Part shown: positions 1 through 64,000 of the stretch, piece by piece
Numbering within the stretch: position 1 is the stretch's first letter
Layout: the number at the start of each line of letters is the position of its first letter
Assembly (NCBI GenBank): GCA_002118135.1
Contig: BDIU01000046.1
Location: 92,244-156,243, forward strand
DNA: 64,000 nt
Source of the DNA: Trebouxia sp. TZW2008
Taxonomy: Eukaryota; Chlorophyta; Trebouxiophyceae; Trebouxiales; Trebouxiaceae
Reading direction: 5' to 3'
Program-made: the position numbers and the translations under genes
The notes under the pieces: generated by a model
Seen by the model: the letters and a program-made list of their open reading frames with translations, nothing else
Databases searched by the model: none
Told to the model about the DNA's origin: nothing

Positions 1-3000
1 AAGTCAGCGACCTTGCAGATTGCCCGCCTGTCCTTGTAGCCCAGCAGCAAATTGGCGCTCTTCAGGTCAAAGTGCACAATGCGCTTGGCATGCAGATACT
101 CCATGCCCTGCACATCGGCATGACAAGTGTTTGTGACAAGTGCAAGATAGATACTCATGCTTCCTGGAAGCGCCACAACGTCTTGCTTGTCAGCAAGATT
201 TGCCAAGTGACAAATTGCAAACTGCTGCAGATTCCAGCAGCAAGTTGAACTGAGGAATTGTCCTGCGCATTGGACCTGCCAAATCCCCTCCAGTGGCCAG
301 CATTGTTCCAGCTGAGTACTAGTGCATAAGCCATGCTGCATGTATTGCAATATGCTTGCCAGAAAGCCTTTTGCATGGTGCAGACAGGCAAGTACAGCTT
401 GTGGAGGCTCATTGCCCTCAGGACATTTGCCTCAGCGCAATCAGCACCGGCTGACATGTGCAGAGCAGCAGCATAAGCAGAGCAGAAGCATGCCTTGGCA
501 GCGTTAAGAGTAGCAGATTGTCAAACGGCACAGACAAGCAAAAGGACACTATGAAAACGTCTAAGTGCCTTGAACTAGTACAATCAGCACCAGTTAGGAC
601 TGCAGAGCAGCAGCATAAGCAGAGCAGCTGCACACCTTGGCAGCATCCATGGCAATGAGGACCCTGATGAGTGCTCCCTGCACAATGTCAGCTTTCCTTG
701 CAAGGGCACCCTTCAAGGAGCCCTGCCCCATGTACTCCACCACAATGGCAGGGGGCCGTACTGTACCAACCCCAGCCTGGGGCTGCCGAGCTAGGGCTGC
801 TGCCAACTCCACTGCATCACCTGTGAGCCATGGCAAAAAGTAAAGTTGAGAACACAGAGTCTTCACTTCTTTGCATGGATCAATTCCATTTGGCCCCACT
901 TTTTGCAAAGAATTGTGTTTCTTACGTCTTGTAAACTTCTCAAGCTGCTTCTGAGGCTGTATGCTGCATGTGACCATCAATCATGTGTGCTATGCCATGA
1001 CGGGCACAGGTACTAATGAGGCTCAGCTGCACGGCATGACCTGATGCCACACGCAAGCTACTTCTAAATTGTAAGCTGCAGACAAGAAACTACCCAATGG
1101 GCAATGTGCCAGTTCATGGCTGTCATTGTGGGGCTTCTGCTGCAGAGTACATTTGCTGCTGTGGCAGCATTGTTTATGAGTCATATGTAGTGTCCTGAAG
1201 ATGAGGTGGGGATGGTTTGCAATCTCGCCGCCAGAGTCTGAGGCTTTACTTGACACTGTGCACTCTGGCTTCAAACAAATGCTGTTTTAAATACAAAGTG
1301 CAGCAAGATTGCTTGGTTACCGCTTGGAGACCAGTGCCATTGACATGCAAGCCATGTGACAAACTCATGTCAGTGGAGCAATGTATTGGTTGCAGCTCTG
1401 ACACATTTATTGATGACCATCAGACTGTGGTGGGCCCTCTGATGACATTGAAACTTGCAGTGGACAACTGACATGGAGGGCAGGATATTTCGTGGTTGGT
1501 TGCATGGTTGGTGTTGCCGCACAAAGGGATTGGCTGCACACCACACAGGAGCCAAAGCGCTTCTTCCTATCAGACATTCCGCACCTATTCCAGGAGGAGC
1601 GAGAAGGCTTCCTAGAGTTGGTGTGGAATGTCTGATAGGACTGATAAGCCTTGACAGCCTGATGACTACTCACTACCACCCCAAATCTCTGGTTATGATT
1701 GCTAGTCTGCTTTTCATACAGGCTCACTGACTCCAACTTCGCTTTAACAAGCCATGAGAGCAGAGCAAAACTGGCAGCATCACCAAGTCCTGCAGCTTTG
1801 ACAGTCGTCAGATGTCACTCTGAGTGGCAGGTGGGAGCCGGAGAATGCCGCCTGGCCCCTCAAATAACATCTGACAATTTGTAGCAACGCAACTTGCTGT
1901 GGAACTGCTGCCGGTTGAGCATGCTCCCATGCAGATTGCTTTTTCGGCTGGCAATGCAGAGCATCGCATGGAACAATACAGCCTATTGGGAACCATTTGG
2001 CAGCTTTTGGAGAGTCGAGCACAGACCTTGATCTCTATCACCCAGCTCATCATCATCACTGTCATCATCCCTGGTCATGGGCTTGAGGACAATACCATAC
2101 ACCCATACCACATTGGGATGCCGCATGCTGCTGAGCAGAGTGGCTTCCTTGATCAGCTCAGCAATGGCAGCTTGCCCACCAGCATCACCCCCCTAGCACA
2201 TGCCACAGCACCAAATCAACATCTTTCATGCAATTCAATAGCATTCACACATGCTGGTGTGAAGTTCAACACAAAGCAGGCACGCCAGGCAGACTGGAGC
2301 AGACTGCGGCTGTGATGGACACGTTGAAAAGACGCAAAGCTCATGTGCACGTTCAGGGAATGCAACATGCTTGGTGAACACAGCAGCGCCAGGTGTCAGC
2401 AGCACACAGATCAGCGTCTGCAGCTGTAATTCGCTTACATACAGCAGATTACAAGCCACAGGAACAGGGACGCATGTTTGACAGCAGTCCATGCAGATTG
2501 TGTTGCAATTCAGCTCACCTGAAAGAAAAGGCTGGGATTGAGACACTTGATGGCAGCTTCACTGCTATGCCACTTGCCCAAATGGACTTCACCATACCCG
2601 CCACTACCCAGAAACTTGACCAGGGTGATGTCCCTAGGGTCAATGATTTCCATGGTGCTGGCTATCCTCTGCAAACTCAGCACCTGCCCTACTTGAGACG
2701 GCTCTGCTGGCGCTGAGCCTGCTGAGCCTGCATTTCAAATCATGCTTACAAGACAAACAGCAACAGAACCGCTGACAGCAGTGCAAGCTGGACTGAGTTA
2801 GCACAAGACAATCTTGTTGATTTGTTTTGACCCAGAGAGAAATCAGCATAGTGCTATGGTCAAACTGGGCAGTAGGCCCCAGTGGCAGACAGTATTCTGA
2901 TCTGCAGACCAGAGCAAAGCAATGCTGTAAGCCGTCTCTGCACAGGATGTTCCACTTAGCAACAGGTGCATGGTGTGCAGGCCAAGGCTGTAGACACTGT

Positions 3001-37474: not shown

Positions 37475-40400
37475 TCACGCGTACTCACGGGCTTTGTTGT
37501 GTCTGCGGACCTCATGGGCATCAGCACCAGACATCACCAAGTTCAGCTCATCAGTATGACAGTCATATCTGAAGCGCATGCGCAGATTGGGTACATTGGT
37601 CTTGTGGATGTCATTGCCATCAGGCCCAGGTTTCCAGTAGTTTGCACATACCCAGTGCATCTTGATCTGCAACAGGCATTGGAAGGAGTAGCCTCAACAA
37701 GGGCGAACATGCCAAGCACTAGAAGCACACACAGACTTGGCAAAAGAGCTGTTTTCGATTTTGTAGTTCAAGGTGTGGACATGCCAAAAAGACAATTGAC
37801 TGGTGATGCTGCCAGGCTGCATTTACTAGCTTATGCACCACACCGTTATAACAGTAGAGTGGGCTATGTACCTGATGTGGGAAGCCGCTGTGAAGCACGC
37901 TGTTACGGGCAATCTCGCATAGGTCAGTGGCGCTCAGCTTCCACACCTGCAGCACACAATCTATTGTTGATCTGGCCAGCTTGCACCTGTATCAATCGCA
38001 GATATTATACGGAGTCGCATTGCACGGATGTCCATGGCAGGAAGCCTCTTCCGTTTTGCACCAGAAGCTCAGACACATGCACATGCCAATTTCATGCGCA
38101 ATGTCAAACAGCTTCTGAACGTGAGCTTGAGTGCCATTTGATATTGGTACATGTACGTACTCTGATGACTCTGCAAAACACAGGCAGGCAGAAGTGACCT
38201 GTGCAGCTACACTGTACTCCTCCACCAAGGGCTCCTTAGTAAGGTGGATCTGCAGGGGATCATCTGTGCTCAGGCTGACATTCATTCCCCTCGCAAAGAA
38301 GGTGGGGAAGGGGTTACGATGGTAGTCCAGAAACAAGCTGTTGTTGGACAAGGGACTCATACACAGCCCCACCTGCATGAGCAATAAGAAAAATTCTCTG
38401 ACATGCTCTAGCCAGCCAACAAGGCTGATTGTGTGCCACACCACATGACGTGAACTCTCGAGCAGTATGTCAAGTGCAATTGTGTGATAGCCAGAACTTT
38501 GGCCGATCGTTTGATTGAGCCATTGTTCTGCTCATCACGACTCTCACGATGTTGAGTTGCATACTACGCTCTCTGTGATGGGCAAATGCAGCATGAAATT
38601 CTCAAGCAAACAAACTAGAAAATATGAAGGTAGAAGTCAATAACATGACATGTCACAAGCAGGCAGCAAAGGCTCAAACTTGAAAGTGTTCTGATGCTAC
38701 AGACAAGCAGCAAAGCCTTGTGAGCATATGAACTTGACAGTGTTGTCAGGCAGAACAATGGCCTGGCTACTGACCTGCTTCAGGTAGTAGAGGTATTGCA
38801 TGCAGGGGGACTTGCGTAGGTTGATGCCATGGGCAATGTTCTCACACAGCATGAAAGCACTGACCAGGTGGTCTGTGTCTCCTGCCTCGCCTACAAAACA
38901 AATCAGGTTGTATCATCAATGTTAGCTTAGCCAATCATTTGGTACGCAGAGGAGGCCATGTGAATGGCAGATGCAGTTTGTCACAGCATCTTCAGAGCGC
39001 AGCACAGAAGTGTCAGAACTGCGTAAGTAGAAGGACCATCCTGTTTTTCGCGGGGGCAGCAAGAGTCTGTCCAGTAAGATGACCAGCAGAACTGTCCCAC
39101 TCAGCTATTGTGGGGTTGATTGCAGAGCAGTTGCCAGCGTAGGATGCCGCATGTGCAGGCAGTCTCAGCCTGCTATGGGGCAAAGGCTCTGCCAGGCAAT
39201 AGCTGGTTGAGTCACTGACATGGGGTCAGAAGGCAATGATGCTGAGGCCCAGGTGGTCCCCCCTTGACAGTGCACGTACACATGTCAATTGATCGATTGC
39301 AGCAAAGCAGGCATGAATTTTGCAGTGGCAGCCTGCACAGCAAGCTGATTAGCATGAGGTCTGAACGCAATGGTGTTGAAGCCCTTGCTATATGGGTCAG
39401 GACATGAATGCAAATTTCAGCCTGTTGTAGGGCAAACACTTTTGCTAGGTAAGAGTTTGATGACCCACCAGCATGAGGTCTGAATGCAATGGTGTTGAGG
39501 CCTTGGGCCTCCCGCAGTTTGTTCAGAGTGAACAGATTGGCGTAGACGTAGTAGGCGTAGTAGGAGTAGGCGGGGTTGTGCTTGAGGTTCCACTCGGCTG
39601 GAGTCTGCATGTGCTTGGCTGGCCGCCGCTCTGGTTTGCTCTCATCATCCACCATGTCTAACCCCACCACCTACAATACAACAACTGCATCCTGAGCCTG
39701 TGCTGCAACAGCCTATCTGACCCTGCAGTTGGAAACCTGTTGGACCTTATATCAGTAGGCAGGGTTGTGCTTGAGGTTCCACTCAGCGGGGATCTGCATG
39801 TGTCTGGCTGGCCGCCGCTCTGGCTTGCTCTCGTCATTCACCATGTCTAGCCCAACCACCTGCATTTCAGCACCTCACTAATCACGTATTTTAGTCACAT
39901 GTACAAACAGCAATATGTTACAGACTGCAGCATTGCCATGCACTTGCAACAAAGCACGCTCTTGCAATGCAGCGTTGCAATGCACTTGCAACAAAGCATG
40001 CTTTTGCAGCACAGGCTTGGACGAGGCCCATGACGTGTATTGGGCTGGAGGTCTGTAAACTCACATTCTTGAGGAAGAGGTGCAGCTGAGGGTGGGAGTT
40101 GGGGTCTTTGGTGACCTCAAACAGCGGCTGGAATATGTTGTCCAAAAGTTGCTCAAAGTTCTCAATGATCCCCTGCTCCTTGTACACGTTGTACAGCCGA
40201 GGCAGCTGCAAGCAATAACACAGGTCTCAGCTCTGTAGTCATCAAGTAGCTACATCATCAGCAGCCTTGACAGCATGGATCCAGCAGCTGCTCAGACTTC
40301 TCCATGATTCCCTGCTCCTTGTATACATTTTACAGCTGAGGCAGCTGCAAGCAACAACACATGTGTCAGTATTGACACGGGCAAACAGTGGTATCATCAA

Positions 40401-43400
40401 CAAAATCTGCGTGAACCAGCAGCATTGTACAGCAGGGGCAGCTGCAAACAACAACACAGGTGTCAGCATGGTAGGCATTGACAGCTTCAATTATCAGCAT
40501 TGACAGCGTCAGGATTGTCACCACAAACAGCATACACCAGCAGCATGATCAGCATCAATACAATAGATCAGCAGCAGCAGCGTCATCAGTAGTGACAACA
40601 CCATTCAGTAGCATGATCAGCACTGCCATTATCACGCTGTAGCATTTTCAGCATTGAGAAGAATAGTAAACAGCATCAGCATTGTCAGCATAGAGGGCAA
40701 AAAGCCAAGCCACAGTGAGTGATCAAGGCTTGCATGTCAGCATGCTTCTCCTTGTTGTTGATCAATCTGTGCCCTATCAGCATAAATCTTTTGAGCAGCT
40801 TGTGGGCGTGGCATAAGCAACTGCATGCATTAATGATCACGACAGCCGTTGCTGCGGCCCAAAGCACTGCATGCTGGCTACAATCACAGCTGACGTGAGC
40901 ATTCATGAAAGCAATGCCTCAAGCCGTAGCAGGAGCTACTGCAAGCAGTCAAGCTGCTAAAGACGAGCATGTCAAGATGCCACTTCTTGTTGTTGGTCAT
41001 TTTCTGCCCTGTCAGTATGGCAGCATGAGTGCTCTCAACATCTTCTGCTGTGATGTGAATGGTTGTTGTTCATGTTACAGCAGAAGCTGCTGCAAGCGCT
41101 CATGCAAGCAATGACTCCAGCCTTAGCACAGCCTCAGTCATTCTATACAGAATTGGCATAGCAGCATGGATATTTGCAGTAGCTTCTAATGCGGTATCAA
41201 TGATAGTAGTCATCAATCCCCGCGGTGGCTTACACAGAATCATCAATAGCCAGCGTCATGATACAACACAAGCTACTGCAAGCAGTCAGGATTGCAATGA
41301 TCTGTGCCACAGCAGAAGTTGCTGCAAGCATTCATACTGCCATTGTTGCCCAAGGTGTACGTCAGCATGTCCGTCTCTGTTGTCATTCACTATATGCCAT
41401 GTCAGTATAGCACCATGAATGCATAGCACCATGAATGCCTACAGGAATAGTTGTGTACTTGATTGCTCATGTCGACTTTTGCTGAAACAACAAAGTTGGC
41501 AGCATGGGTGCTTGCAGGGCTGTTTTCTGTGGCGTGAATCGCATGCATGCAGGCTCACAGTGGAAATTGCTGTAGCGACAAATGTGGCAGCATGAATGCT
41601 GGCAGTGGTCCCCACTATGGCAGGAATCATTGCACTCATGGATCCTTTCAGTGGCTTGCAATGTGTCATGCATGCAGACAGCCATGATGCATTGCAACCC
41701 ACCACAAGCATCCTTGACTGCAATGATCCGTGCTACAGCAGAAGGAACTACAAGCAGTCAGGCTGTTACGTCGCCTGAGGGTTGAATGTTGGTATGACCC
41801 TCCTTGTTGTCACTTATTCTGCGCCCTGTCAGCATAGCAGCATGGATGTTTGCAGTAGCTTCTGATAGGCCATCAAGAGTTGCAGTCATCAATCCTCGCG
41901 GTGCCTTGTGATGTATCATGCATAATGGCAGTCATGGTACATTGCCAGCCACCGCAAGCATCAATGCACACAATGTTTCAAGCCACAGCAGAAGTTGCTG
42001 CAAGCATTCGTGCTGCCAGTGCTGCAGACTGATTGGACTGAAGGGCTAGGCTGATGCATCGCAAATCACCTCACAAAGTCACTGCATTGCCAATGCTAAA
42101 CTTCCTGCCAAACTATAGGCATATCAAATGCTTTGTGCACACAGCAACCACTGCTAGACAACGTGGGTCCGTGAATTGCTAGAACTGCCACTCCAGCGAG
42201 CCAGAGGACATTGTCTGAGTAGAGCTTGTTCTGGCATTACCAGGCAGTAGCTTTCTTGCACTTTACTCGTGACTGCTTGCATATGTCTGAGCTGATGTTT
42301 GCAGAATGGACCAAATCTGGAAGAGCCAGAGCACGTGTTCTGAAAAGAGCTCGCCCTAGCAGTACCAGGCAGCAGATGTACCAAAGTGGATTGATCCTGC
42401 AGGCAATTTGTCACTGCAGGTGCAGTAAGGACCCAACCTGAAGGGGTCAGAGTACATTGTCTCGGCAGAGCTTGTCTGGCAGTGACCTTCTGGCTGTGCA
42501 GCAGATTATCTCCTTATCTGAGTACAGCTTGCTGCTTTCAAACAGTTTCATGCTGCAAAACACGCCAACCCAAATGAGCCAGAGCACGCTGTCTTGAAAG
42601 AGCTTGTTTGGGCTGTAGCCTTTGGCTGTGTGAGATTTTGCCCATATGCAATTTGATGCTTCCAATACAATAGTAACCTGAATGAGCCAGAGGAAATTGT
42701 CTGAGTAGAGCTTGATCAGGCTGTAGCTGTCTAATGTCCTTATACCTGTGTGCGACTTGGTGGCCCCAACACAGGACCACCCAAATGAGCCTGAGGATGT
42801 TGTCTAAACTGAGCCTGTTCTGGCAGTATCAAGCAGCACTTTATGCTGAGAATAATGTATCACACAATCGCCTGCGTACAACCTGATACTTGTCAGAGTG
42901 TACCGACCTGAATGAGCCAGAGGACATTGTCTGAGCAGAGCTTCATTAGGCCTGAAGCTTTCTAATGTCCTTATGCCTGTGTGCAACTTGGTGTTTCCAA
43001 CACAGGACCCACCCGCATGACCCAGAGGGCCTTGTCTGTAAAGTAAAGCTTGTTCAGGCAGCTCATGTTCTGGCAGCAGCTTGTGCTGAAAACAAAGTAT
43101 CAGACGTTTGCCTGAGTGCAACCTGGTGCTTCCAATAGAGTACCAACCTGAATGAGCCAGAGGACATTGTCTGAGTAGAGCTTGTTCTGGCAGTACCAGG
43201 CGGCCAGGATGTCCCACTCCACAGGCTTGCGACCATAGATGGAAATGCGGTACTCAGCGTGCTGGTACTTGCTGGCCTCCAGGTCTAGCAGCACCTCCTT
43301 TGTCAGCTCTGCCAAAAACCTGCCATGCAGAATATTGTCCTGCAGCGGCATACAATACAGCTTGCAGTGCTGCCCGACACACAAAACTAGCAAAGCATCA

Positions 43401-46400
43401 GAAACCATCAGATTCAGCCAGTTCTGAGGCAACTATATATGGAGATGCGGTACTCGACGTGCTGGTACTTGCTGACCTCCAGGTCCAGCAGCACCTCCTT
43501 TGTCAGCTCTGCCAAAAAGCTACCATGCAGAATGTTATCCTGCACAGGCATGCAGGTCAACAGCATCACAGCATTTGTCGACGCCAATTTGCAGAAGGTT
43601 GACCTGCCAGGATATGCAGAGTGTCAGCAGCATCTCCTTTGTGAACTCTGTCAAAAACCTGCCATGCACATTGTCGTCCTGCAGGGGTTTGATGAAGATC
43701 TTGCACAGCCAGCTCGGTCCAAAGGGGCTGTACTTGGCATCGACATACGTGCAGTGGTGCAGTCTTTGCCTGGCCAAGGGGTCATGATGGCAAGCATTGG
43801 GGTCTCTTCATACAGTCTTTATCTCACAACATTATTGACACAGCATGCAATTGATGCATTCTCTGTGGCACAAGGGCAGTGTGCATTGAATTGCTGACAC
43901 CTACTTGAGAGGTGTTCAGTTCTGCCTCTGCCCAAGGCAGTCAAGTCTGTGTAAGCAGTTGCTTGCAGTCTGCTTTACGTAGCATGTCTTGGAAATGAAG
44001 CATTGGGTGGCTGACCTGTTTGATGAAGATCTCACGCAGCCTGCTCTGGCCAAAGGGGTTGTACTTGAGGTTGAAGCGGTCAAAGCGGTGGAAGGACTCC
44101 TTGCCGGCATGCATATCCAGGGTGTCCACATTCAGATCATACCTGCGTCAAATTCCAAGCCTGGTGAGCTTCAGGGACTCAAGGACTCTTTCAAACCCAA
44201 AGCACAAAATCTTTGACACTCACAATCTTTTGAGCAGCATGTGCTGTGGACAAACCAGCCTGGCAAGACACGATATTGTGACACCATCCTAGCACATGTG
44301 CTGAGAAGATCATGATTGCTGATTGCAAGGTGGATTCAGACCTACCCAGTGAGCTTCAGAGACTCAAAGACTCTTTCAAACCCAAAATATTATTGACTTT
44401 TGTGTTTCAACAATAGTGTGGTTTGACGCATACCAGTGAGCTTGAGGCACTCAAAGACCTCCTGCAAACCCCCAACTGCCAACTCTTGAATGCCCACAAT
44501 CTACAGCACAATGACTTAAGGGTATAAACCTAACTTCTCAATGCTTATACCCTGAGTCCCTACCCTTAACAGCCTTAGTGTGACATACCCTGTGAGCTTG
44601 AGGGACTCAAAGACCTCCTGCAGGGTGAGGTACTTGCCGTCCCGGAAGATGACCACCTCTCCCGGCTCCTTGCGCAGCTTGCTCTTGATGAAGCGCAGCA
44701 GGTGCTTCTGGTGCATGCATGCGCTGTGATGCACGTGAGTGTCCACCTGCACAGGCATGTTTGTATGGTCAATCATCTGATCTGCACATACATTGGCAGC
44801 ATGCAGAGGCTGGTGCATGCACGTACTGTGGGGCACACGCGTCTCAACCTACACCAGTTCCTTCAAGCACTCAGAGTTGTGGTCTGCATCCATGCAGTTT
44901 TGCAAATGTGCTTTCGGTGCATGCACTCGCTGTGATACAGGTAAGGGTCTATGTGCACAAGCGTGACTGCACAATCAGTCGTGTGATCTGCGCTTGCACC
45001 TGCATCAGGACAAAGACCCTGGACCTGCACCCTATTTCAGGACCTGAATTATGATTCTTAAGTCATGGATAGCGCAACAAGTACACAGCGGTCGCTGTAC
45101 AGCATATTGTGCAGGCATGTCAAAGACTTGCAGGTGACATGACCTCAGTAAGATCTCTGAAGGTATCCAAGAGGTTGTAAGAATGTCGACCAGTGCAAAT
45201 CGTGCATCATTTGTGCACACATGTCAGACTTGCAAGCAGCATGCATACTGTCAGAGCCCACAATCTCAAAGCCCACCTTGCGGACATTGTAGAAGTCCCT
45301 GTGGGGTGCTGTCTTCTGCGCAAGGAACTCCTTGTCAGCGTTCAGCATGACGTGCAGGTTGAACTTCTGCTCCAGCAGCATCAGCCGGTGATGACAGAAG
45401 CTCTTGATGGGACCCATAGCTGCAATCTTACACATCCTGCACTCCAAGGGCTTGTGTTTCAGACAGGGTTTGAGTCAAGCAGTTGGTGAAGACCTGCATG
45501 TGATGTGCTGCTAAGATGAACTGCAATCAGTGTGTATTGCAACAGGCTTTCTGAGCAAAACAAGTGATGGCTGGAGGCAGTGTTGTCACCTGTAAGTGTC
45601 AAGAGCAGGCAGCCCCGAAATGGTGTGATAAAGCAGTCCGCTTGACCGCACGCTGTAAGGGCCTGCCAAGAGGTTGTAGGCACAGCAGTGTTGACCGTTG
45701 CACACAGTGCATCAGATCTTGTATGGCGGGGGTGATGGGGAATCCTCACAAGCAATAGCAGGATCCAACGCAATTGTCTCATATGTCAATCATCTGCAAA
45801 CGATGCTTCAAGAAAACCAAACCTGTGCTGTGACTGTTGGTTGTGCATGATTGGAGTATTGATCAGGACTGCAGGACATACCTGCTCATGTCTGAGAAGA
45901 AGTCAAAGGAGTTGCCAGGCACAGGGAAGGGCTCAGAGGTGTGCGCTGCGTTGTCATACACCCGGAAGACGCCGTCCTGCATCTCAAAGTCGTAGGGCGC
46001 CACAGGCTGAGGCTCCCACTTGAAAGGGTCACCGTTGATGTGTGAGGGTGCAGCCGCCTCTTGCATGCCTGGGTGCTGCTGTGCTGGTGAAACTTGCGCT
46101 GTAAACAGCCACTTGTCCCTACATCAATAGTACAGTGAGCCCTTGATTGTGCTTGATTTGATCGCTGCTGTTCACTGTTGATGTATGAGGGTGCAGCTGC
46201 CTCTTGCATGCCTGGGTGCTGCTGTGCTGGTGTCACCTGGGCTGGAAACAGCCACTTGTCCCTGCATCAGCAGCACAATGAGTGATTGCTGTCGGCTATG
46301 AACAGCAACTTGTCCCTGCATCGCAGAGTTGTAGGGCGTCACAGGCTGAGGCTCCCACTTGACAGCGTCACTGCTGATGTCTAAGGGTACAGCCGCCTCT

Positions 46401-49266
46401 TGCATGCCTGGGTGCTCCTGGGCTGGTGACACTTAAGGTCTGGACAGCCACTTGATCCTGCATCAGCAGCACAATGACTGATTGCTGCCACTGTGCTGTG
46501 AACAGCAATTTGTCCTCCCATCTCAAAGTTGTAAGGCATCACAGGCTGAGGCTCCCATTTGAAGGGGTCACCATTGATGTGTGAGGGGGCAGCTGCCTCT
46601 TGCATGCCTGGGTGCTGCTGTGCTGGTGACACCTGGGCTGTAAACAGCCACTTGTCCCTGCATCAGCAGTACAATGAGTAGTTGCTGTCAATTTTTGTTT
46701 GATCAACAGTTCAGAAGGGCCTTTGACCATGCTCAGTTGAGGTACTGCTTTTGCTGGGCTTGCAAGATGGCGTCAGAGGCTGCTGAGATATCTTGACAAA
46801 TGCAACAAGGTACGCAGTGAGAACAACAAAGAGCCTGTGCTGAGGTCCTGATGCCTATAAACTTAGCTGCACAGAGTTAGCAAGAGTAAGTACTATACCT
46901 GAGGGCATAGCACTGCTTGAGCAGAGTGCACACTTCCTCAGTTTCCTCGTTGATGGCTGGCTCTGGAGTGATGACCCGGCAGTACTGATCATGCATAGCA
47001 GCATCCTCAATGATCTGCAATCATCACAAGGTACATCACAATTGCAGCTACACAATCGAGGCATTGCATGTGTAAGCAGAATCATGCAAGCAGCACATTT
47101 ACAGTGCAGGTTCATGGCGCAGCTATTCAAAGCTCACGCAAAGATGCATCAGGCTGCATTCAACAAAAAGCTGCACGCACAGTTGAGACAACATGTGTCA
47201 ACCAAGCACTCACATACAGGTGCTAGTGATACTTGCATTAAGTTGACAATGACAGTAACAATGACTGCGCCAGCAATAGCAAGCTTGACAGAGATAATGA
47301 CAGTGACAGTGACAGAAACAGTGTCTGACCTTGCCAGTATTCATGAGGTCCACCGCAGTGCTGAGGGTGTGTGCGGGGGGAGGGGCGGGGGGTGGGGCTT
47401 GGTGAGCATATGCTGGGATGGAGTGAGGCACATAGCCAGCGGCGGCAGGGGCGTAAGGAGCCACAGCACCTGCTGCTGGTATGTGTGGAGCATGTGACAC
47501 ATGTGAGGCGTGCGTCACATGGGGCACATGGGGCTGCAGTCACAAAACCCTGTAAGCACTGGATACATGTGAAGCATTTGCTGGGGTGAGGCACGTAGCC
47601 AGTAGCAGCAGGTGCATAGGGAGCGACAGCACCTGCTGCTGGCATGTGTGGGTCATGTGACACATGTGGGGCGTGCATCACATGGGGCACATGGGGCTGC
47701 AGGCAGACACTTCTGTCAGCATATGCTCAATGAGGGCATGCTTTCTCTCTGGTATATGTTATGTGCCTACCTTGTGAGAAACGCCAAACGTTTGTCAGCA
47801 GCTGTCTGGGCATCACAAAGCTAGCAAGGCTTCAGCTTTGCTGCCCATCATGTGACTAAGCTTCAGAGCTCAGTCTGATGTAGAGAGAGGCACATCACAG
47901 CAAGTGCTTGAGGAATGAGCAAGAGCAGACAGGCTTGACATGTCTGAAATGCAGGATTGCATGCATAGAGAGCGCCTGCTGCTGCCTCTAGCATGCAATG
48001 ATTAGAGTTTGGTTGTGACAGGAGTCAAGGCACCTGCCTGAAGTGATGCACACAGGCACGACATGTCTGAGGTGCAGCGATGCATGCATGCGTTCAGAGT
48101 GTCTGTTGCTGACTCCAGCATGCAGTGACGTGAGTTCACTTGCGGCAGGCATATGTGCACCTGTTTGAAATGATCATTGATGAACTCACGGCCGCCATGA
48201 CTGCTTCGGTCTGCAGGTCCTGTAAATGCATGCGCTGCTTTGCTGGCAACTGGATCATCCTCCTGCAAAGCACAACAGAACGCGTTTTACTGATGAAAGG
48301 AGTTGACAAGCTGTGCCTACATGATGAGCTCCTACTGACAAAGGCATGATGCAACTCATGCAAATTTTGATGCAAGAATTGCTGAGCTGTGCCTGCATGA
48401 CACAATGCTGCTGATGGAGGCACAAAGAAACTATATAAATTGAAATTTGGGCATGACAAACTGCTGCTGAGAAAGGCATCACAAGACTACAATTTTGCTG
48501 ACCACATGGCATTCAGCTTTGACAATGCCTGCATGACAAGCTGCTGCTGACAAAGGCATCATGAACCTGTACAAACTGAACTTTGGGCATGACAAAACAA
48601 AGGCATGAGACAATTTTGCTGACCACTCGGCGCCCAGCTTTGACAATGCCAAGGTGATCAGGGCGGTGAGTCTGGTCCCACTCATCCTCAGTGATCTCAT
48701 CACGCACAGCAGATGCCTTTCTTGGAGATACAGATGCATCACCCACATCCAGGGATGGCTGCCGTGTCTGCAAGCAACAATTTGCAGTGAGATACACAAG
48801 AACGTACAGGAGAAACAGGTGGCCTGATTTGTGCTGATAAGCTTACAGCATCTATCCTCAAATGATGCCTGCTGGTTGCTTTGTTCTCGGCGCTTTTGTG
48901 TGGCGAGCCGAGGCCGTCCTGATCAACCACATCTCCACGCCGAGCTCTGACCCTTCGTGGGCTATACGACCTGCAGCATGTGCGCAAACATTCCGTATGC
49001 GCCGCATGTCACAGCTGTGTGAAAGTTCGGCCCAACAGTCGCTGTGCCGCAGCGAGCTGCGAGACTGAATGACATGAACTGAAGCCGTTCGACCGTGGAG
49101 TCACCCACCTTGAGGGTTTGGATTTGATGCGAACGGCGTCGGGAAGATCCAGAGATACACGCGGTAGCAACAAAGCAAGACTCAAGGATGTAGCTGCAAA
49201 CAGGCCGAGGGTGACGATGCCGACTGCGATCGTCAGCCACAGAGGCACGTCAAGGGCAATGCGCAT
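37475..49266 (-). CDS. AMPD: AMP deaminase, plant FAC1-like, membrane-anchored
   Basis: Converts AMP to IMP and ammonia. Exon 1 (from ATG 49266) has an N-terminal TM ([20 protein letters not shown]), as in plant FAC1. Regulatory-region exons follow, including about 48760-48600, 47014-46899 and about 46090-45882 ([17 protein letters not shown]). The catalytic part is clear: 45419-45277 ([20 protein letters not shown]), 44746-44589 (metal-binding [25 protein letters not shown]), 44142-44016 ([17 protein letters not shown]), 43339-43148 ([16 protein letters not shown]), 40205-40065, 39670-39469 ([14 protein letters not shown]), 38890-38775 ([19 protein letters not shown]), 38372-38199 ([17 protein letters not shown]), 37946-37872 and 37666-37475 ([13 protein letters not shown]). 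All catalytic junctions checked are in phase. Introns are long and full of partial exon copies. Exons between 49100 and 47020 are only partly resolved. Confidence 0.92.
39600..39865 (-). repeat. duplicated AMPD exon start
   Basis: The start of the exon at 39670 ([20 protein letters not shown] with CAC/TAG acceptor context) is copied upstream in the intron at about 39745-39865, including the HNPAY part, with a few substitutions. Confidence 0.85.
40140..40460 (-). repeat. copies of the AMPD exon start at 40205
   Basis: CCTGCTCCTTGTA-AC-TT-TACAGC-GAGGCAGCTGCAAGCAA on the plus strand appears at about 40170-40216 (exon) and 40308-40355, with a weaker version near 40420-40460. Confidence 0.75.
40500..42060. 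repeat. degenerate repeat-rich AMPD intron
   Basis: Low-complexity CAGCAT-type runs (40490-40690) lead into diverged units of several hundred bases. Markers include GCAGCATGGAT-TTTGCAGTAGCTTCT at 41162 and 41848, and CAGCAGAAG-TGCTGCAAGC near 41080, 41310 and 41990. No coding capacity is supported. Confidence 0.6.
42180..43210 (-). repeat. nine-copy array of an AMPD exon end and donor
   Basis: The exon end encoding [16 protein letters not shown] and its donor (43148-43200) recurs eight times downstream in the intron, centred near 42205, 42330, 42455, 42590, 42700, 42805, 42925 and 43035. On the plus strand the core is GAGCCAGAGGACATTGTCTG, then AGAGCTTGTTCTGGCAGTACC. Spacing is about 105-130 bp. 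Confidence 0.88.
43240..43745 (-). repeat. copies of AMPD exon starts (43339 and part of 44016)
   Basis: The exon region [15 protein letters not shown] with acceptor (43255-43345) is copied at about 43440-43550 and, shorter, at about 43625-43690. The last copy runs directly into a piece resembling the exon end at 44016 (TTTGATGAAGATCT, CCAAAGGGG-TGTACTTG). Confidence 0.8.
44155..44635 (-). repeat. four copies of the AMPD exon end at 44589
   Basis: GTGAGCTTGAGGGACTCAAA followed by a GACCTCCTGCA-like block at 44591 (exon end, SLKLTG) recurs near 44163, 44348 and 44433. Confidence 0.8.
46000..46665 (-). repeat. four copies of the AMPD exon start near 46090
   Basis: A unit encoding [20 protein letters not shown] and its acceptor occurs at about 46003-46125, 46160-46265, 46330-46445 and 46535-46660. 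Only the first continues into the rest of the exon. Confidence 0.82.
47415..47705 (-). repeat. two-copy repeat of about 165 bp in AMPD
   Basis: GTGAGGCAC-TAGCCAG to CACATGGGGCACATGGGGCT occurs twice, ending near 47538 and 47702. It encodes an Ala/Pro/His-rich stretch on the minus strand, so part may be exonic. Confidence 0.75.
48140..48640. repeat. diverged repeats in AMPD N-terminal introns
   Basis: TGCATGACAAGCTGCTGCTG, AAAGGCATCA and ATTTTGCTGACCAC-type blocks recur at about 48390-48500 and 48520-48640. The last block overlaps the edge of the exon encoding [11 protein letters not shown]. Confidence 0.55.
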
Positions 49267-56032: not shown

Positions 56033-59000
56033 ATGCCTATACCGTGGCGTAGGTTGCTGCTGCCAGAAACGCTGCTCAAGCTAGTCGGCAGATCGCCTCG
56101 CACAAACGTCGTTACAGGTGATAGTGGATCAGCCCTTCATCGTGCTTCGACCGCTCAGCTTTCATGGACCGGGGAGCACCTGCAGCCCCTCGAAACCGCC
56201 GTTCACCACGATCGCGCCTCGCACTCAAAGAAAGCCATCGATGGCACAGCACATAACGATGGCCAGCTGCAAGAAAGCGCCGTGTTGGATGCACGCGCGC
56301 CAGCTGCACCGGTGCAGACGCCCAGCGCTGTTTCGTCTAACAAAACAGACTCGACCAAGCTGTCAAGCTTGCACTCCCACGAAAGCATTCCTCTGCACGG
56401 CCGTCACAGGCGCATTGGTTCAGCCGCGTCAGACGTCAGCTTGTCTTCTGTTGTGAGCACCACAGGCGCTTACACAGGCTTCACCCAGGCTGGGCAATAT
56501 GACCTTACCATGGATGTCATTTTGCGGGGGGAGTTCATATCAGAGCAGCAATCAAAGGCGTGTGCATCAGCATATTGTAAATTGGGACTTGGCCTGCTCA
56601 ATGATGTTTCCTATGTTTCTTTGCTGTACCACTGACTCATTGCTCACTCATGCAGGCTGTTATTGTCAGCATTAGGATTGCTACCTACATAGGCATAGCA
56701 ATATTGTTGGTGGCCTTGAGCTATAAAGTGGCAAAGGTACGGCGCTGATGGCAGTCTCTCCTGCCATTGGCGTTGCAATGTGGCAGAAAATCAAACATTG
56801 CTCGCCGTGTACTAAGCTTTCTCTTTGACCTGCAGACAGATTTATGGTTCACATCAAACATAGCAGTTCAGGTTTGATTCCACAGTCAGCAAAAGCTACC
56901 AAAAGCTAATTTCATGTCGTTTTCAGGCAGTCTCAAGATTGTTGTATGTGCAGGCTTGGAATGTCACTCTCGGATCCTTATGTTTTGCAGCTCTTTTTGT
57001 CTGCTGTACCATACTAGTCTCACGCGTTTTCAACATCTACAGACAACAGAAGCACTGGTACGATCATTGCCAAGTCTGCAGCCAGTTCTGTGCAGAGCCT
57101 ACCTTTTCAACATCTGTCAGCGAATACGCAGGTCTAGACGCAGGAAAGTCACCGTTGCACTGAATGCAGCAGAACTGATTGTACAGGTGATGCTTTGTTT
57201 TCTCTTGGTATTACATCTGTATTGACGTGCTCAGACCATATGAAGATTGTCTGGGCATGAGGGCAGCATGTGGATGTTTTGGGAAGGCATGAAGGTGGTT
57301 GTGAGAAGAAACAAGCCTTCAATGACTTGCTGCAGTTGATCAACATATGCGTCTGATGAACTGGCATGACAGTGACGGCAACTGATGCAACGCCACATCG
57401 GAAAGGTTGATTGCATCTGAACTTATGCACTTGCTGCAGTTGATCAACGTATGTGTGTGGGTGGCGCCAAATGCCATCCTGTTGAGGAATAATTGCTCCT
57501 GGTTTGAGCCATTTGTGGTGTGGTGCGCTTTCACCAGCTGGACTTGCTGGAACACTATTTTTCTGATTATGCTCATTGAGGCTCACAATTGTGCGCCATG
57601 GCACAAAGGCAGAGCAGCAGCCAAGAGAGGTAAAGCTACACAGTGTATATGTATTTATAGCTACATTGTGTGCTGTCCTGATGGAGTGCTATTTCTCCAA
57701 TCATGCTCATTGAGGCTCACAATTGTGCAACCTGGCACAAAGGCAGAGCAACTGCCAAGGGAGGCAGCGCTACACATGATACATGTATTTGTTTGTGTAT
57801 TGTGTGCTGTTCTGTTGGAAAAGTCTCTTCCCGATCATGCTCATTGAGGCTCAATATTGTGCACCCTGGCACAAAGGCAGAGCAGCCGCCAAGAGAGGTA
57901 GTGTTGTACCGTGTATACACAATGACCGCATGTGCAGCACAGTGACATTGCCAGCAGCTACATCATTGAACTTGATCCAGGTCACATTGCATCTGAGCTG
58001 CAAGGTTGCACTCTTCAGCCAAGCTGTTCAACAGTGTCTCGCATTTGAAACTGTTGTGCCACCTTTGAAGATCTCCATGCAATTGCTGTGAACGCCTGTA
58101 CGCTCTTTGTTCTGTAATCAGGAAGGGCATTCCTGTCTTAGCAAAGCCCCTTACTGTGCTTTTTGCTCTGTGCCCTTCATGCATGCTCCATGTGCTCATG
58201 TGAGCACTTGAGCATTGCACATATTGCTGCCTCTCTAAGAAATGGCTTCAATGCTGCAGGCAGGCACAGCAGGGACGCCATTGTTATGGACGCCCCAATC
58301 TGGTATCACACCCCAAAGCTGCTGCTATGGTGCCTCTTTGAGGCACTGGACTTCTTCTTGGCCATCTGGGTGACTCGTGAGTGCAACATCCCCATTGCCT
58401 GCAAGCAGTCTGTACCCATCGCCAGTGTTTGCTTGCACATGTGTTCAATGGCTTTCTTTACGCTTGCCTGCACAATGATCGCTCACCTGTATCTGAGGCT
58501 CACTGAGCCACAGTTAGGGTCAGGTGTACGGCGTCTTGACAGTGTATAAATTGTTGCAATATGTGTCAGTCAGAGCTGGCCCACCCTTCCATCTGTACCT
58601 AGAAAACAATATTGCAGTATGGCAGATGAGCTTGATGCTGATGGGTTGCCTTGAAGGCTGCTTCGTAGTAGGAGCATGCGCGATGCATGTGACCTGCCTC
58701 CCCAAGACAAGCAATGCTGACCTAGAATCATGTAGATGCAGTCACCCTTGATTTCTCACACTGCCTGGTGCTTGTCAGCAGCGCTTGTGCATGCTGTGCA
58801 GATGATCAAGTGGGCCCAGTCAGACGTAAGGCGATCAAGTCTGACGTGGAGTGTGCAGTGCAAGCTCAGAACTGCCACCTGCAGACAGTGACCCTGGTGG
58901 TCGTGATCTGTGTGTGGGGCTTGCTCATCCTGTACCTGCTGCTGTGGTTCCTGTACATGTGGCGGGCCTACCGGGACCTGCAGAAGCACCAGTACATGCA

Positions 59001-62000
59001 CTACAAGATGGGCAACCTCAATGTCCGCATGCAGGTGTGCATAACATGAGCAGTGCACACGATTATTCTTGTGTTGCTAGTGTGCGTCTGAGCTGCAGAG
59101 CATTTCAGCATCATTGGGGTTCAGTTCATGCTGCTGAGTGTTGGTCTGATCTGTAGGGCAATTCAGCAACACGCAGCCCTTTTGAGCTCAAACAGCTGCA
59201 TGATTTTGACTAGTTGCATGAAGGCTGAGCCCAAGTGCAATACGATCTGTGACTCATGCAATGGTCTATGCCAGCATGGAGTCACCCCTTAGGCTTGGCA
59301 CACAAATGCAAATGCATCGTTTTGCGAGGCACAGGCAGCAAGCGATGGCCAGTGTCCCAGATGAATGCACTTCCACAGGCACTTTGTCAAATGCAAGTTT
59401 GGGTCACATGGAGCTTTGCATTAACCGGAACAATGCTGACAATACCATCACTGACAGCTGAATGCTGTTGCTTTGCAGGCCCACAGGCGCATGATAGCTG
59501 CCGGCCTGTTCCTCATCAGCTTTGTAGTTCTACAGTTCGTCAAGCTAAACAGCTGCGCCAGCTACCTGGAGTCTTGGCTGGGCTTTGCGCCAGTGTATGT
59601 TGTAGAGACAGCTGTTGCTGTTGGCGGCGCGTACTTCTTCATGCCCAAGAACCCAGACTTGCAAGATCCCATCCTCAGAGTGAGTGGCTGCTGTTTTTGT
59701 TGTGTTGTGCAGTCACTTCTTTGGCAAAGCCTCTTTGCCAGTGTGAGTTGTGGAGACAGTTGTCTCTGTTGGCGGCGCATACTTCTCCATGCCCAAGGAC
59801 CCAGGCCTGCAAGATCCAGTTCTCAGGGTGACTGTCTCTTGCTTGTGATTCTTTCGTCCAGTCGCATTATGAGAGTTCACTTCATCTAGGTTCGTGCATA
59901 ATTCGGCAGGTTTTTTGTACAGACCAGGCCATGCATACCCCTTCATGCCCATGAACTCAGATCTGCAAGAGTGCATTCTTGGAGTCAGCAGCTTTCACTG
60001 GTCTCTTTCAACCAAATGTTTTGGGTTTGTTGCTACAATGCTGCGCTGTTGAGCTGGCTGTGTAATTCATGCCAGGACCAGGCTACGCACAATTCTTCAT
60101 GCCCACACAGTCAACACTGCAAGAGCCCAACCTCACAGAGAGAAGCTGCTCAAATTGTCTCTTCTTGGACTGCAAGACCTGACAGCTGAAGAATAACTCC
60201 TGCAATCAAGTCTTCAAGATCATTCCCTTGATGGCACAGACTGCCTGCAGGTATGGCTGCAAAATTTTGGCTGGACCGAAGAAGAGAAAATGGCCAAGCT
60301 AGCCAAAAGGAGGGGCATTGCAGGTCCTCACGAGCTTCCAAATTTTCTGAAAAAGCTGGAAAAGCAGCCTTTTTTCTGCTGATGTTCACAGCTTGCTGCA
60401 GGTGTGGCTGCAAGAGTTTGGTTGGACTGAAGAAGAGAAGGCCGCTAAGCTCGCCAAAAGGGGCGGCATAGCAGGTCCAGTGCACGACGCCCTTAAGCAC
60501 GAGCCCATGTTCTGCTTTGGCACAGCAGTCAAGCTGTTCTACTGGTCTCACTTGGTGTATGACATCAACGAGGAGGGCAGCAGACGCTTCAGCATTGAAA
60601 CAGCGCTGGGCTTGTTTGGGCTGGACAAGTACGAGCTGATGTGGGAAAAGGCTGAAGACACTAAGGTGTGCTATGTGCACATGCTAAGTGCCATGTCCAG
60701 AGATGGAGGACTGTTGCTGTCTGTGGCTGTTGTGTGTGCAAATCTCTGAAGGTTGCACATGTTCCTTCTCAGCTCCCATGTGCAAAGCGTGGTCATGCAT
60801 GTCATATGACTATGTCTATGCCACTGTCTCGCTGTAAGACGCTGGCCGTCAGTCCACAATCAACTATGTATGAGAATCCAAACTCTGTGGTCTTATCCTC
60901 TTCTGCACATGACCAAAAGTCTGCTTCTCAGCACCAGCAGTCCATCCTCACTGGAACTGTCATATGGATGCCTGTTGGGTCCTGGAGGTTGACAGCATAC
61001 TTGCTTGTTATGTGCAGGTGTTGCTGGCTTGGGGCAGCGACACCATCCTGCTGAGCTTCAGAGGCACTGCCAGCCTCGCCAATGCCCTTGCCGACATCCA
61101 GGTATGCTGCACCCGCCACTGTGAACAAGGGAAACACGACTTTGCGCCATTGAACGTATACTGGCAGCTGTTGTGAGGAGAAGCAGCCCAGCATCTGTGA
61201 GTGACATCACCTTTTAATCCATTGGTACACATTTTATAATGAGGCACTCATTGTTTCAATTGGCATCCTGAAGTCTTGTTGTTCCAAAGATTGTATCGCT
61301 GTGTAGATTTGCTCTGTAGGATTTCAGCAGATTTGAGCTTCTGTTCTTGTTGCTGGGCAAGTTTCTGCTTTGAGGCAGCAGCACAATGCCATGGCCTGTG
61401 CAGGTTTGCTGATGGTGTGTGAAATGCTCCAAAGCCGTAACAAGCTAGCTTGCTGCTTGCTGATGCATCTGAGACATTGCCATCAGCTGTGGACAAGTTA
61501 CTTCTCGAGCAAGCATGACAAACCCTTCTCATCACTACCTCTGCCACAACTGTTATGCCCTATTGTAAATGCTGAAGATAGCTGATGTGTTGCGGACATA
61601 AAGCAAGATGTTGACGGCAGGTGTGGGTCACTACCCAAGCAAGGATGATGAGAGGGATGGCTTGGAGCAGAGCCCAGGGCAGGGCCCAGGGCAGGACCTA
61701 TTAGCAGGGCCCCAGGCCGCTTTTAGCTGGCTGCCTGTCAGGAATGCGTGGTGCATCATTCCTGCTGTACAATCACACTGCTGTACAATCACATTTCAAA
61801 ACTGATGTATTGGCAAGCTGACATCAAAGAGTGTTGACGACAGGTCTGGATGAGCCATTACCCAAGCAAGCATGATGAAAGGGAAGGCTTGGAGCAGGGC
61901 TTAGGGCAGGGCTCAGGGCAGGGCTTAGGGCAGGACCTATTGGCAGGGCCCCAGGCCGCTTTTAGCTGGCTGCCTGGCGGGAAACCGGCGGTACACAGAG

Positions 62001-63654
62001 GATTCTTGAACAGCTGGCGAGCTAATGGCCTCAACCAGCGTGTTATCCAAAGGATCTGTGAGATTCTGGAGGAAGGGGACATTGACCAAAGCAAAGTGAA
62101 GGTGCTGTGCACAGGTGAGGTTCCTGGTGTAGTGCTAACAAGGGCAAACGTGCGATGAACAAAAGAGGCTTCTGATATGCAGCAGCCACAGTGTGGCTTT
62201 GTCATTGTTGAGTTGTGTGGTTGATGAGATTCAGTAAGATTCTGGAGGAGAGGGACATGCACCAGAGTACAGTGAAAGTGCTGTGTACAGGTGAGGGTTC
62301 TGCTGCAGTGCTAATCATAGCAAATGTGCTGTGTACATGTGAGGCTTCTGCTTCAGTGCTGATTTGCAGCAGCCCTAGTGTAGCTTTGCCAGTGTTGAAT
62401 TGTGTGGTTGGTCACATCTTGCAAAGGTTCTGGAGGAGGGTGACATTGACCAAAGCAAAGTGAAGGTGCTGTGTACAGGTGAGCTTTTGCCTACAGCGCT
62501 GTCGTACCAGTCTTGATGCGCACACCAGCAACGCCATACGTGTAGCTTGCCAGGATCATGTTGCAAGATCAGGCACAGGCCAGGATCTGATTGCGGTGTT
62601 CTCGTGTCTGGTGTAGTTCACTCTTTGGGTTGCGCTGCAGCTAGCCTGGCTGCCTTTGACATCCAGCCACAGTGCATGCATTTCACCCAGCTACAGTCTA
62701 CGCATGCTGGCCTTATTTCCATGCTACAGCAAACTCTCTTTGTAACGAGTGCTTTGCTTACCAAGAAATTGTCCTTACATTGAGTCGTCCCCCCTCAGAG
62801 GGATCACTGCAGTCAGAATGCAGTGATTGGCTACATTGAGATTGTCCCAACATTGAGTGTCCTTGCAAAGAGAGTTTACTGCATATGTGGTTCAGTTCAT
62901 TTCTTGGGTGGGTCTTTGGCTAGTCTGGCTGCCTTTGACATCCAGCGGCACTGCTCCTGCCTGGGGCCTTTGGGTGTGGCCTGCTACACCTTTGGAGCCC
63001 CCCTTATCTGTACTCAGCAATAGCAACAATGTAAAGACCAGATTCATGCTCCCTGCAGGGCATTCTTTGGGTGGGGCGCTGGCTAGCCTGGCAGCCTTTG
63101 ACATTCAGAGGCACTGTCCCTGCTTGGGGCCTTTGGACGTGGCCTGCTACACCTTTGGAGCCCCCAGGGCTGGCAACCATGCCTTTGCCAGACAGTACAA
63201 TGCGCTGGTGCCTGACACCTGGGCCATCATCAACGATCAGGTCTGCAACTTGTCTCAAACTGGTACCTGTGCAGCATGCCTGGCATGCAAATGGGGCTAT
63301 CTGTCTGCCAGGCGGCACGATGTCCTGGTGCCTGGCACTTGCAAGCATCATCAATGAAAAGGTCACACACTTGCCTTATGATGCCATGTTTGCAAAAATC
63401 AGGCAGACACAGCTTTGCCAGGCATCACAATATTTTAGTGCCCGACACCTAGAGCATCATTAATGTTCAGATTTCACTCAGGTATTCCAGATGACAAAAA
63501 GCCTGGTTTGGCATGCAGGATGTGATCGCTCGTGCCGGCAGGTTTTGGGGCCTGTACAAGAGATCAGGGAAGCGAGTGATGATTAATCCGAGCGGGGATC
63601 TGATTGTGCGGCCCACATTCATAGAGGCTGCAGCTCAAATGATGCGACCCTGGG
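56033..63654 (+). CDS. polytopic class-3 (DAGL-like) lipase, 3' end beyond window
   Basis: Predicted membrane lipase acting on diacyl- or acyl-glycerols. A Ser-rich cytosolic N-terminus (from ATG 56033) is followed by TM exons: 56656-56736 (IRIATYIGIAILLVALSY), about 56926 onward, about 57440-57630 (LLRNNCSWFEPFVVWCAF), 58260 onward, 58800-59035 (TLVVVICVWGLLILYLLLW) and 59479-59680. The alpha/beta hydrolase part has VWLQEFGWTEEEKAAKLAKR (60400), LLSFRGTASLANALADIQ (about 61040), HYPSKHDEREGL (61852), nucleophile elbow GHSLGGALASLAAFD (63059), CYTFGAPRAGNHAF, LVPDTWAIINDQ and GRFWGLYKRSG (63519-63654). Plant membrane lipases of this class and animal DAGL share this plan. The catalytic His lies beyond the visible part. 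The splice after residue about 175 is unresolved; only a GC-type donor fits. Confidence 0.82.
57300..57905 (+). repeat. lipase TM-exon copies (two arrays)
   Basis: The exon start CTTGCTGCAGTTGATCAACG near 57430 has a copy near 57325. The exon end encoding LIEAHNCAPWHKGRAAAKR and its donor (57565-57632) recurs at about 57700-57770 and 57836-57905, with spacing of about 136 bp. Confidence 0.85.
59600..60145 (+). repeat. four copies of a lipase exon end
   Basis: The exon end with YFFMPKNPDLQDPILR and its donor (about 59600-59685) is copied at about 59735-59832, and in decayed form near 59935-59985 and 60090-60142 (TTCATGCCCA, CTGCAAGAG). Confidence 0.75.
60240..60485 (+). repeat. duplicated lipase exon start (QEFGWTEEEK)
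   Basis: CAGGTGTGGCTGCAAGAGTT and the next 80 bp (60400-60480) are copied at about 60248-60340 with about 15 changes. The copy would encode NFGWTEEEKMAKLAKRRG. Confidence 0.85.
61615..61985 (+). repeat. duplicated lipase exon start (HYPSKHDEREG)
   Basis: The exon at about 61846 and its acceptor are copied at about 61619-61745. The copy runs through the G/Q repeat and AAFSWLP before diverging. Both carry an internal GGGCAG-type repeat. Confidence 0.85.
62040..62490 (+). repeat. three copies of a lipase exon end (ILEEGDIDQSKVKVL)
   Basis: AAGATTCTGGAGGA ... GTGAAGGTGCTGTGCACAG plus the GTGAG donor (true exon end 62040-62114) recurs at about 62225-62300 and 62425-62485. Confidence 0.82.
62600..63180 (+). 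repeat. three copies of the lipase nucleophile-elbow exon
   Basis: Copy 1 (about 62612-62680) reads HSLGCAAASLAAFDIQ. Copy 2 (about 62895-63005) reads HFLGGSLASLAAFDIQ. The intact exon at 63059 reads HSLGGALASLAAFDIQ. Copy 2 has Phe in place of the catalytic Ser, so it could not give an active enzyme. Confidence 0.85.
62725..62883. mobile_element. pogo/Tigger-like MITE, copy 3 (lipase intron)
   Basis: About 159 bp with inverted ends ACAGCAAACTCTCTTTG and CAAAGAGAGTTTACTG. It shares the GTCCTTACATTGAG-type core and terminal motif with the elements at 13533 and 18489. It lies between copies 1 and 2 of the nucleophile-elbow exon. The right flank is CA rather than TA. Confidence 0.65.
63180..63480 (+). 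repeat. three copies of a lipase exon end (ALVPDTWAIINDQ)
   Basis: TTTGCCAGACAGTACAATGC ... ATCATCAACGATCAGGTC (63183-63245) recurs with decay at about 63306-63365 and 63412-63465, in the downstream intron. Confidence 0.75.
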
Positions 63655-63936: not shown

Positions 63937-63945
63937 ACCTGCCCG

Positions 63946-63996
<51 letters not shown>

Positions 63997-64000
63997 GCTG
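63937..64000 (+). repeat. (TGCC)n microsatellite at window end
   Basis: Tetranucleotide TGCC/CTGC run reaching the last base of the window. Confidence 0.95.

Follow-up and report, generated by a model that had tools for sequence, protein, structure and literature searches.

How do introns grow long? To our knowledge, intron lengthening without transposons is poorly documented. The question is raised by a locus of Trebouxia sp. TZW2008, a green alga that is probably a lichen partner, in which the introns are rich in partial copies of neighbouring exon ends. The window, i. e. the whole stretch of DNA that was analysed, comprises 64,000 nt (contig BDIU01000046.1, positions 92,244-156,243) of a genome of 68.5 Mb in 527 contigs with a GC content of 0.501; for six Trebouxia genomes, PMC11523091 gives 63.08-73.88 Mb and 49.64-51.05% GC. 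The AMP deaminase of the window is 95% identical to a Trebouxia sp. C0005 protein across a 501-aa query, and the top named matches of its lipase and S28 peptidase are Trebouxia proteins.

Self-comparison of the window at a fixed bit score and at distances below 1 kb revealed 40 clusters of local direct repeats. At fixed thresholds there were 80 near direct pairs as compared to 2 near inverted, 2 far direct and 1 far inverted pair, and identical thresholds gave 0 pairs in three first-order Markov controls. A self-BLAST with near defined as less than 4 kb yielded 78 direct versus 2 inverted near pairs and 3 distant ones. Thus, the dense local repeats described in the original prediction are real. 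They are not confined to the window: near pairs in 19 other loci of this genome (188.6 kb) number 92 in direct and 5 in inverted orientation, which is about 40% of the pair density per base of the window and unevenly distributed (0 to 20 per 10 kb). Such repeats abound in the window, which may be extreme for exon-end copies. One of the other loci, L018, has four near inverted pairs in addition to 19 direct ones, and there is one inverted pair in the other 18 loci together. When three units of the 40 clusters were searched for in the complete genome (68.5 Mb), each matched only its own cluster, the counts being lower bounds, and the spacer 39687-39753 had no match but itself. A dispersed element or introner is therefore rejected for the three units. 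Since the copies differ by about 20% from one another, an assembly artefact seems unlikely from the sequence.

The exon maps rely on spliced alignment of two cDNA-like proteins and of Trebouxia orthologues to the window. P0126, a protein of 619 aa from a Logan contig of 2,359 bp, aligns without gaps in ten exons and is identical at all 614 unsplit codons, and P0001 (674 aa, 2,731-bp contig) in 13 exons with 669 of 670 unsplit codons matching. The two genes extend over 7 and 10 kb, and open frames from which the introns are missing fit into contigs of this small size; the source contigs are thus most simply regarded as spliced RNA. P0002 from Trebouxia sp. C0005 (732/846 against the AMP deaminase) contributes four further introns, and P0121/P0122 (Trebouxia sp. 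C0005/C0006) give eight lipase introns, among which the donor at 58377 is doubtful; six upstream lipase introns were left out because of poor alignment there. The junction test set consists of 33 introns with 66 junctions in three genes, and the cDNA-like proteins back 21 of these introns. A self-trained gene finder (donors like CAG-GT(A/G)AG, acceptors like TGCAG-G, the hyphen marking the junction) called several copies exons. The genes are the following:

25205..32427, + strand: S28 serine peptidase (PRCP-like) gene, 10 exons, five clusters; mapped with P0126
37478..49266, - strand: AMP deaminase gene (match to PDB 2a3l), 17 exons (13 by P0001), 15 clusters; mapped with P0001 and P0002
57440..63656, + strand: class 3 lipase gene, the part in the window, six clusters; mapped with P0121/P0122
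12653..19224, - strand: ELP2 (elongator WD40) gene region with further clusters; repeats by self-comparison, exons from the gene finder only
12653-12848, 15512-15766, 16117-16373 and 17384-17835, - strand: clusters of the ELP2 region, by self-comparison
18247-18491, 18310-18737 and 18755-19224, - strand: the remaining clusters of the ELP2 region, by self-comparison

In the three mapped genes, 19 of 26 clusters span a splice junction with at least 10 nt on each side, three end 2-5 nt from one, and four are intronic. The repeats had been proposed to be centred on splice junctions, and indeed 22 of the 26 clusters span or abut one. They had also been ascribed to nearly every long gene: this holds for the three genes with good exon maps, and elsewhere the exons are gene-finder models only. 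The clusters at the junctions, and one purely intronic pair, are as follows:

26646..27179, + strand: cluster over acceptor 27127/27128
27414..27669, + strand: tandem pair confined to the intron, period 116 bp, 95% identity; matches nowhere else in the genome
28499..28890, + strand: cluster over acceptor 28771/28772
30655..31047, + strand: cluster over donor 30682/30683
31592..32234, + strand: 131-bp unit, four acceptor copies plus the true acceptor 32140/32141; matches nowhere else in the genome
39165..39502, - strand: cluster over donor 39468/39469
39565..39875, - strand: gapped pair over acceptor 39670/39671 with a 67-bp spacer that matches only itself
40141..40507, - strand: cluster over acceptor 40205/40206
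42198..43216, - strand: cluster over donor 43147/43148, eight exon-end copies
43229..43687, - strand: cluster over acceptor 43339/43340
43687..44067, - strand: exon-end copy, ends 2 nt from donor 44015/44016
44429..44622, - strand: exon-end copy, reaches 5 nt past donor 44588/44589
44702..44991, - strand: pair over acceptor 44746/44747
45976..46690, - strand: cluster over acceptor 46118/46119, three copies
47405..47721, - strand: pair over acceptor 47533/47534
47925..48174, - strand: pair over donor 48160/48161
48390..48650, - strand: pair over donor 48623/48624
57545..57917, + strand: cluster over donor 57629/57630, two copies
59589..59863, + strand: pair over donor 59679/59680
60235..60478, + strand: pair over acceptor 60401/60402
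61605..61983, + strand: pair over acceptor 61843/61844
62055..62486, + strand: cluster over donor 62114/62115
62609..63165, + strand: exon-start copies, end 2 nt from acceptor 63058/63059

Two of the clusters on the minus strand deserve a comment. The similarity of the eight copies in 42198-43216 to the exon alternates (98, 78, 85, 78, 92, 80, 97 and 88%), which suggests that a higher-order unit was copied again. The pair at 44164-44386 was filed as intron-only; as judged from the weak resemblance of 44164-44186 to the exon end 44592-44614 (34 bits), it may be derived from an exon, too.

Copies of exon ends were aligned at 20 of the 66 junctions, with 40 copies in total and up to eight per junction. 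In seven exon-versus-intron alignments the exon member lies wholly in the exon, and in all seven it ends 0-6 nt from the exon end; no exon-internal copy was found, with a P value of 0.001 to 0.13 depending on the assumed ancestral intron length. Is this more than random placement would give? If tandem units are placed at random in collapsed introns, 12.5 ± 2.4 spanning clusters are expected as compared to the 19 seen (P 0.007), an expectation that is lowered by the use of the smallest offset as unit length. If templated insertions are simulated, the number of clusters expected to touch a junction is 7.8 for introns of the present collapsed length and rises to 11.6, 15.8 and 19.4 if the introns are capped at 300, 200 and 120 bp, versus the 22 seen (P 0/1500, 0/1500, 0.003 and 0.11, respectively). 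Assuming 60% detection of intron-only copies, the P values become 0/1500, 0.002, 0.03 and 0.16, and for the 19 spanning clusters alone they are at most 0.003 at 300 bp, 0.017-0.067 at 200 bp and 0.15-0.19 at 120 bp. These values refer to a hand-compiled event list, in which a multi-copy cluster can meet a junction more easily than a single simulated event can, and to collapsed lengths that subtract spacers and some exon bases, thus raising the expectation. Of simulated intron-only pairs of like age and length, 257 out of 300 were detected; the real loss is therefore smaller than the 60% assumption implies, and ascertainment as the sole cause of the junction bias is rejected. For the related alga Asterochloris, a mean of 9 introns per gene, a gene length of 4,240 and an mRNA length of 1,400 bp (PMC6652019) imply introns near 315 bp. 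This is why we take the junction preference as real in our analysis: the enrichment that had been expected against random positions is clear if the ancestral introns had 300 bp, borderline at 200 bp, and gone at 120 bp.

The presence of exon-end copies goes along with intron length. We searched for copies with the flanking exon ends as queries and judged the matches against introns taken from other genes; with p<0.02 required at one or the other end, 4% of the introns are expected to be positive by chance. In the test set, all 14 introns of at least 500 bp contain sequence copied from a flanking exon end, with strong matches in 13 cases and a marginal one at 29147-29689, and copies are found in 5/10 introns of 350-500 bp, in 2/4 of 250-350 bp and in 0/5 below 250 bp. 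The growth of introns by local DNA duplication, a central point of the original prediction, is thus supported. At the other loci, where the introns come from gene-finder models alone and the exons have at least 60 nt, the corresponding numbers are 15/40, 7/40, 3/35 and 8/75. The claim that short introns are free of arrays is thus true for the test set, though eight of the 75 short introns elsewhere have a match at p<0.02, with about three expected. Members of local pairs cover 36% of the intron bases in the three genes (6,805/19,073), 48% of the bases in the 14 long introns (6,314/13,275), and 28% of the exon bases (1,736/6,150). With gene-finder models, local repeats cover 20% of the exons, 18% of the introns and 21% of the intergenic DNA in the window, and 11%, 10% and 5%, respectively, at the other loci. 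We tentatively ascribe the similar coverage of exons and introns to copies that were called exons and to units that span junctions.

The copies themselves look neutral. Copy-to-copy differences at codon positions 1, 2 and 3 are 0.215, 0.178 and 0.219 (40 copies at 20 junctions; the pairs are non-independent, and most come from junctions 43147 and 32140), and this pattern reveals no coding constraint. The copy-to-exon differences are 0.126, 0.100 and 0.208, with about half of the copy-to-copy values at positions 1 and 2, a pattern to be expected if one branch is free of constraint and the exon itself undergoes synonymous change. Stops are present at 13 of 882 codons, near a rough neutral expectation. 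The copies were thought to keep their GT and AG signals; this is the case for AG in all 13 acceptor copies that reach the junction, most of them within GCAG, but for GT in only six of ten donor copies. Each copy has one junction only, and in the peptidase and the AMP deaminase the copies are absent from both cDNA-like proteins, in which every junction is represented once, in keeping with the idea that only the complete exon is used. A decay of the copies away from the exon is not general, as the nearest copy is better than the farthest at just 5 of 10 multi-copy junctions.

The structure of the repeats speaks to their origin. With a strict adjacency filter, a minimal spacer of 30 nt for gapped pairs, and 33 further gapped pairs set aside as non-adjacent, 52 gapped pairs face 38 contiguous ones, at least one of the gapped pairs (L003) being misfiled. 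Thus, the strictly tandem structure that had been assumed is not borne out. Similarity of the flanks beyond the ends of the 52 gapped pairs was found at p<0.05 in three cases on the right and three on the left, with 2.6 per side expected. Eight gapped pairs reach at least 90% identity; the right flank of one of them (L016 1043) is at p 0.02, and another, L003, is really part of a contiguous 57-bp array. Since gapped pairs are commoner and lack similarity past their ends, plain slippage is probably insufficient, and simple replication slippage, the original explanation, is unsupported as the whole story. Sharp ends and unrelated spacers, as in templated insertion, are a property of the gapped class only; many events look like a nearby segment copied in the same orientation into a break some distance off.

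The intron part of the acceptor copies measures 15-49 nt in 11 of 12 BLAST alignments (hand list), and their exon part 45-143 nt; with a more permissive aligner, three of the copies reach 73-112 nt into the intron. The donor copies vary widely in length and often have long intron parts. In 356 gene-finder introns, a CTNAY branch-point-like motif peaks 20-29 nt upstream of the acceptors (59 versus 22-34 in the next bins), a weak signal. It is tempting to speculate that some acceptor copies may be devoid of a branch point of their own, but this is a lead rather than a result. Lariat reverse transcription, which the short intron part of the acceptor copies might bring to mind, is left as speculation: it does not accommodate the donor copies, and only a weak branch-point signal is present.

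The two pairs located wholly in predicted exons have offsets of 81 and 114, divisible by three in both cases, whereas no preference for multiples of three is seen among the remaining pairs (56, 50, 66; 56/172). This is a small sample, but it agrees with a general process from which most exonic products are eliminated. The 81-bp (27-residue) in-frame repeat at 34546-34756 (- strand), in one predicted exon of a methyltransferase-like gene, is the sole cluster of the window that lies wholly in a predicted exon.

We consider it reasonably probable that local template copying in the same orientation, filtered by selection, lengthens the introns. Segments of roughly 40-180 bp would be copied nearby, nearly always in the same orientation and with a median offset of about 200 bp, presumably by template switching or by abortive template-dependent repair during DNA synthesis. 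The outcome would be either a contiguous tandem duplication or, more commonly, a gapped direct repeat. Copies landing in exons would mostly be removed by selection unless they are in frame, whereas those landing in introns would persist, leave the transcript together with the intron and accumulate changes neutrally. Copies with an exon end are over-represented, and long introns would therefore be largely built from the edges of their own exons. The observations themselves comprise the locality and direct orientation of the copies, the single genomic place of the tested units, the gapped structure, the missing coding constraint, the absence from two cDNA-like proteins and the link with intron length; the enzymatic mechanism, the removal by selection and the cause of the junction preference are inferred. 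Several findings do not sit easily with template copying: it offers no mechanistic cause for the junction preference, which vanishes at ancestral introns of about 120 bp, the 38 contiguous pairs fit plain tandem duplication, exon-end copies are rarer elsewhere (15/40 introns of at least 500 bp, gene-finder models), and gene-finder exons are about as covered by repeats as introns. Moreover, direct-only orientation is not usually reported for templated inserts made by polymerase theta.

Contiguous tandem duplication, by slippage or by fill-in of the 3' overhangs of staggered breaks and end joining, with later loss of the similarity in the rapidly evolving intron part, is a rather unlikely alternative. 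It accounts for the 38 contiguous pairs; several donor clusters and the 131-bp array are contiguous, and duplication at staggered breaks has been demonstrated in mouse cells (PMC8355091). Yet the strictly adjacent gapped pairs have no residual similarity beyond their ends; even the eight most similar ones provide just the one right flank at p 0.02, next to the contiguous array of L003, and since simulated intron-only pairs of equal age were recovered in 257 of 300 cases, decay should not hide such similarity. A different possibility is that breaks or copying occur where splicing takes place, perhaps with RNA or splicing intermediates, in a process targeted to junctions and linked to transcription. 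The 22 junction-touching clusters as compared to 7.8 or 11.6 expected (present collapsed or 300-bp-capped introns), the seven exonic alignments that all stop within 0-6 nt of an exon end, the lack of exon-internal copies, and the start of the acceptor copies shortly upstream of the AG, near the branch-point zone where CTNAY peaks, all point in this direction. We nevertheless find this process improbable, given the four purely intronic clusters, the repeats in predicted intergenic DNA, the frequent long intron parts of the donor clusters and the three acceptor copies that extend far into the intron; in addition, decoys with a branch point of their own would be selected against, which would likewise shorten the intron part. 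The far-reaching version of this idea is a continuing process in which DNA is copied by preference across splice junctions, with genome growth directed by transcription or splicing, and in which many acceptor copies may be inert decoys that lack a branch point; in our opinion, it is quite unlikely. Finally, it is very unlikely that the copies are alternative exons or regulatory decoys kept by selection: the invariant AG of the acceptor copies would agree with such a role, but the even differences between the codon positions and the stops lead us to reject functional exon copies, and neither cDNA-like protein includes any of them.

The exon-end copies resemble several known systems, yet differ from each. 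In potato, a tandem duplication across an intron-exon boundary made a new intron, and the duplicated segment likewise joins a 3' intron part to a 5' exon part (PMC4974935); this was a single contiguous event, whereas the window has dozens of clusters, with gapped pairs in the majority, that lie within single introns of the cDNA-like maps of two genes. The AGGT model of intron gain of Rogers and Hellsten, as cited in that paper, also invokes local tandem duplication near splice signals, but it needs duplication of an exonic AGGT and a new intron, neither of which is found in the mapped genes. Tandem exon duplication with mutually exclusive splicing shares the local, exon-derived intronic copies; however, according to PMC9013439, whole coding exons are kept, whereas the copies in the window are partial, have one junction and have not retained coding constraint. 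Small tandem duplications induced by staggered breaks (PMC8355091) are equally local and direct, but would be contiguous by mechanism, in contrast to the predominance of gapped pairs here. Introners act on intron content genome-wide as well, but are copied into many genes (PMC9860276), whereas the three tested units occupy one place each. The word "tandem" does not occur in the main text of the consulted genome papers on the lichen algae Trebouxia and Asterochloris; those on Trebouxia hardly mention introns, and eight of the 13 intron mentions in the Asterochloris paper (PMC6652019) concern matters other than such copies. Dense exon-end copies in introns are undescribed among the titles and abstracts listed, a set in which subscription journals are mostly absent.

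In this locus, much of the intron DNA can still be traced to its origin, with the conserved exon end as the reference for its unconstrained copies. The copies are natural decoy splice sites in large numbers, and thus offer a test of how the spliceosome picks the right site. They are also a warning for gene annotation, as they can be called exons in the way our self-trained gene finder did. If a junction-preferring process were indeed at work, transcription or splicing itself would steer where the genome grows.

A few repeats stand apart from the exon-end copies. At locus L009, the segments 5317-5463 and 5656-5802 form a 94% identical pair; nearly all of its differences fall into the first half, a pattern that partial gene conversion or a second round of copying would leave. 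A sequence of about 180 bp is present at 13524-13715, 18480-18667 and 62721-62884 of the window with 71-72% similarity and in one case inverted, and is probably an old dispersed repeat. The window also contains two microsatellites, AAGGA x18 at 14539-14630 and CCTG x16 at 63938-64000.
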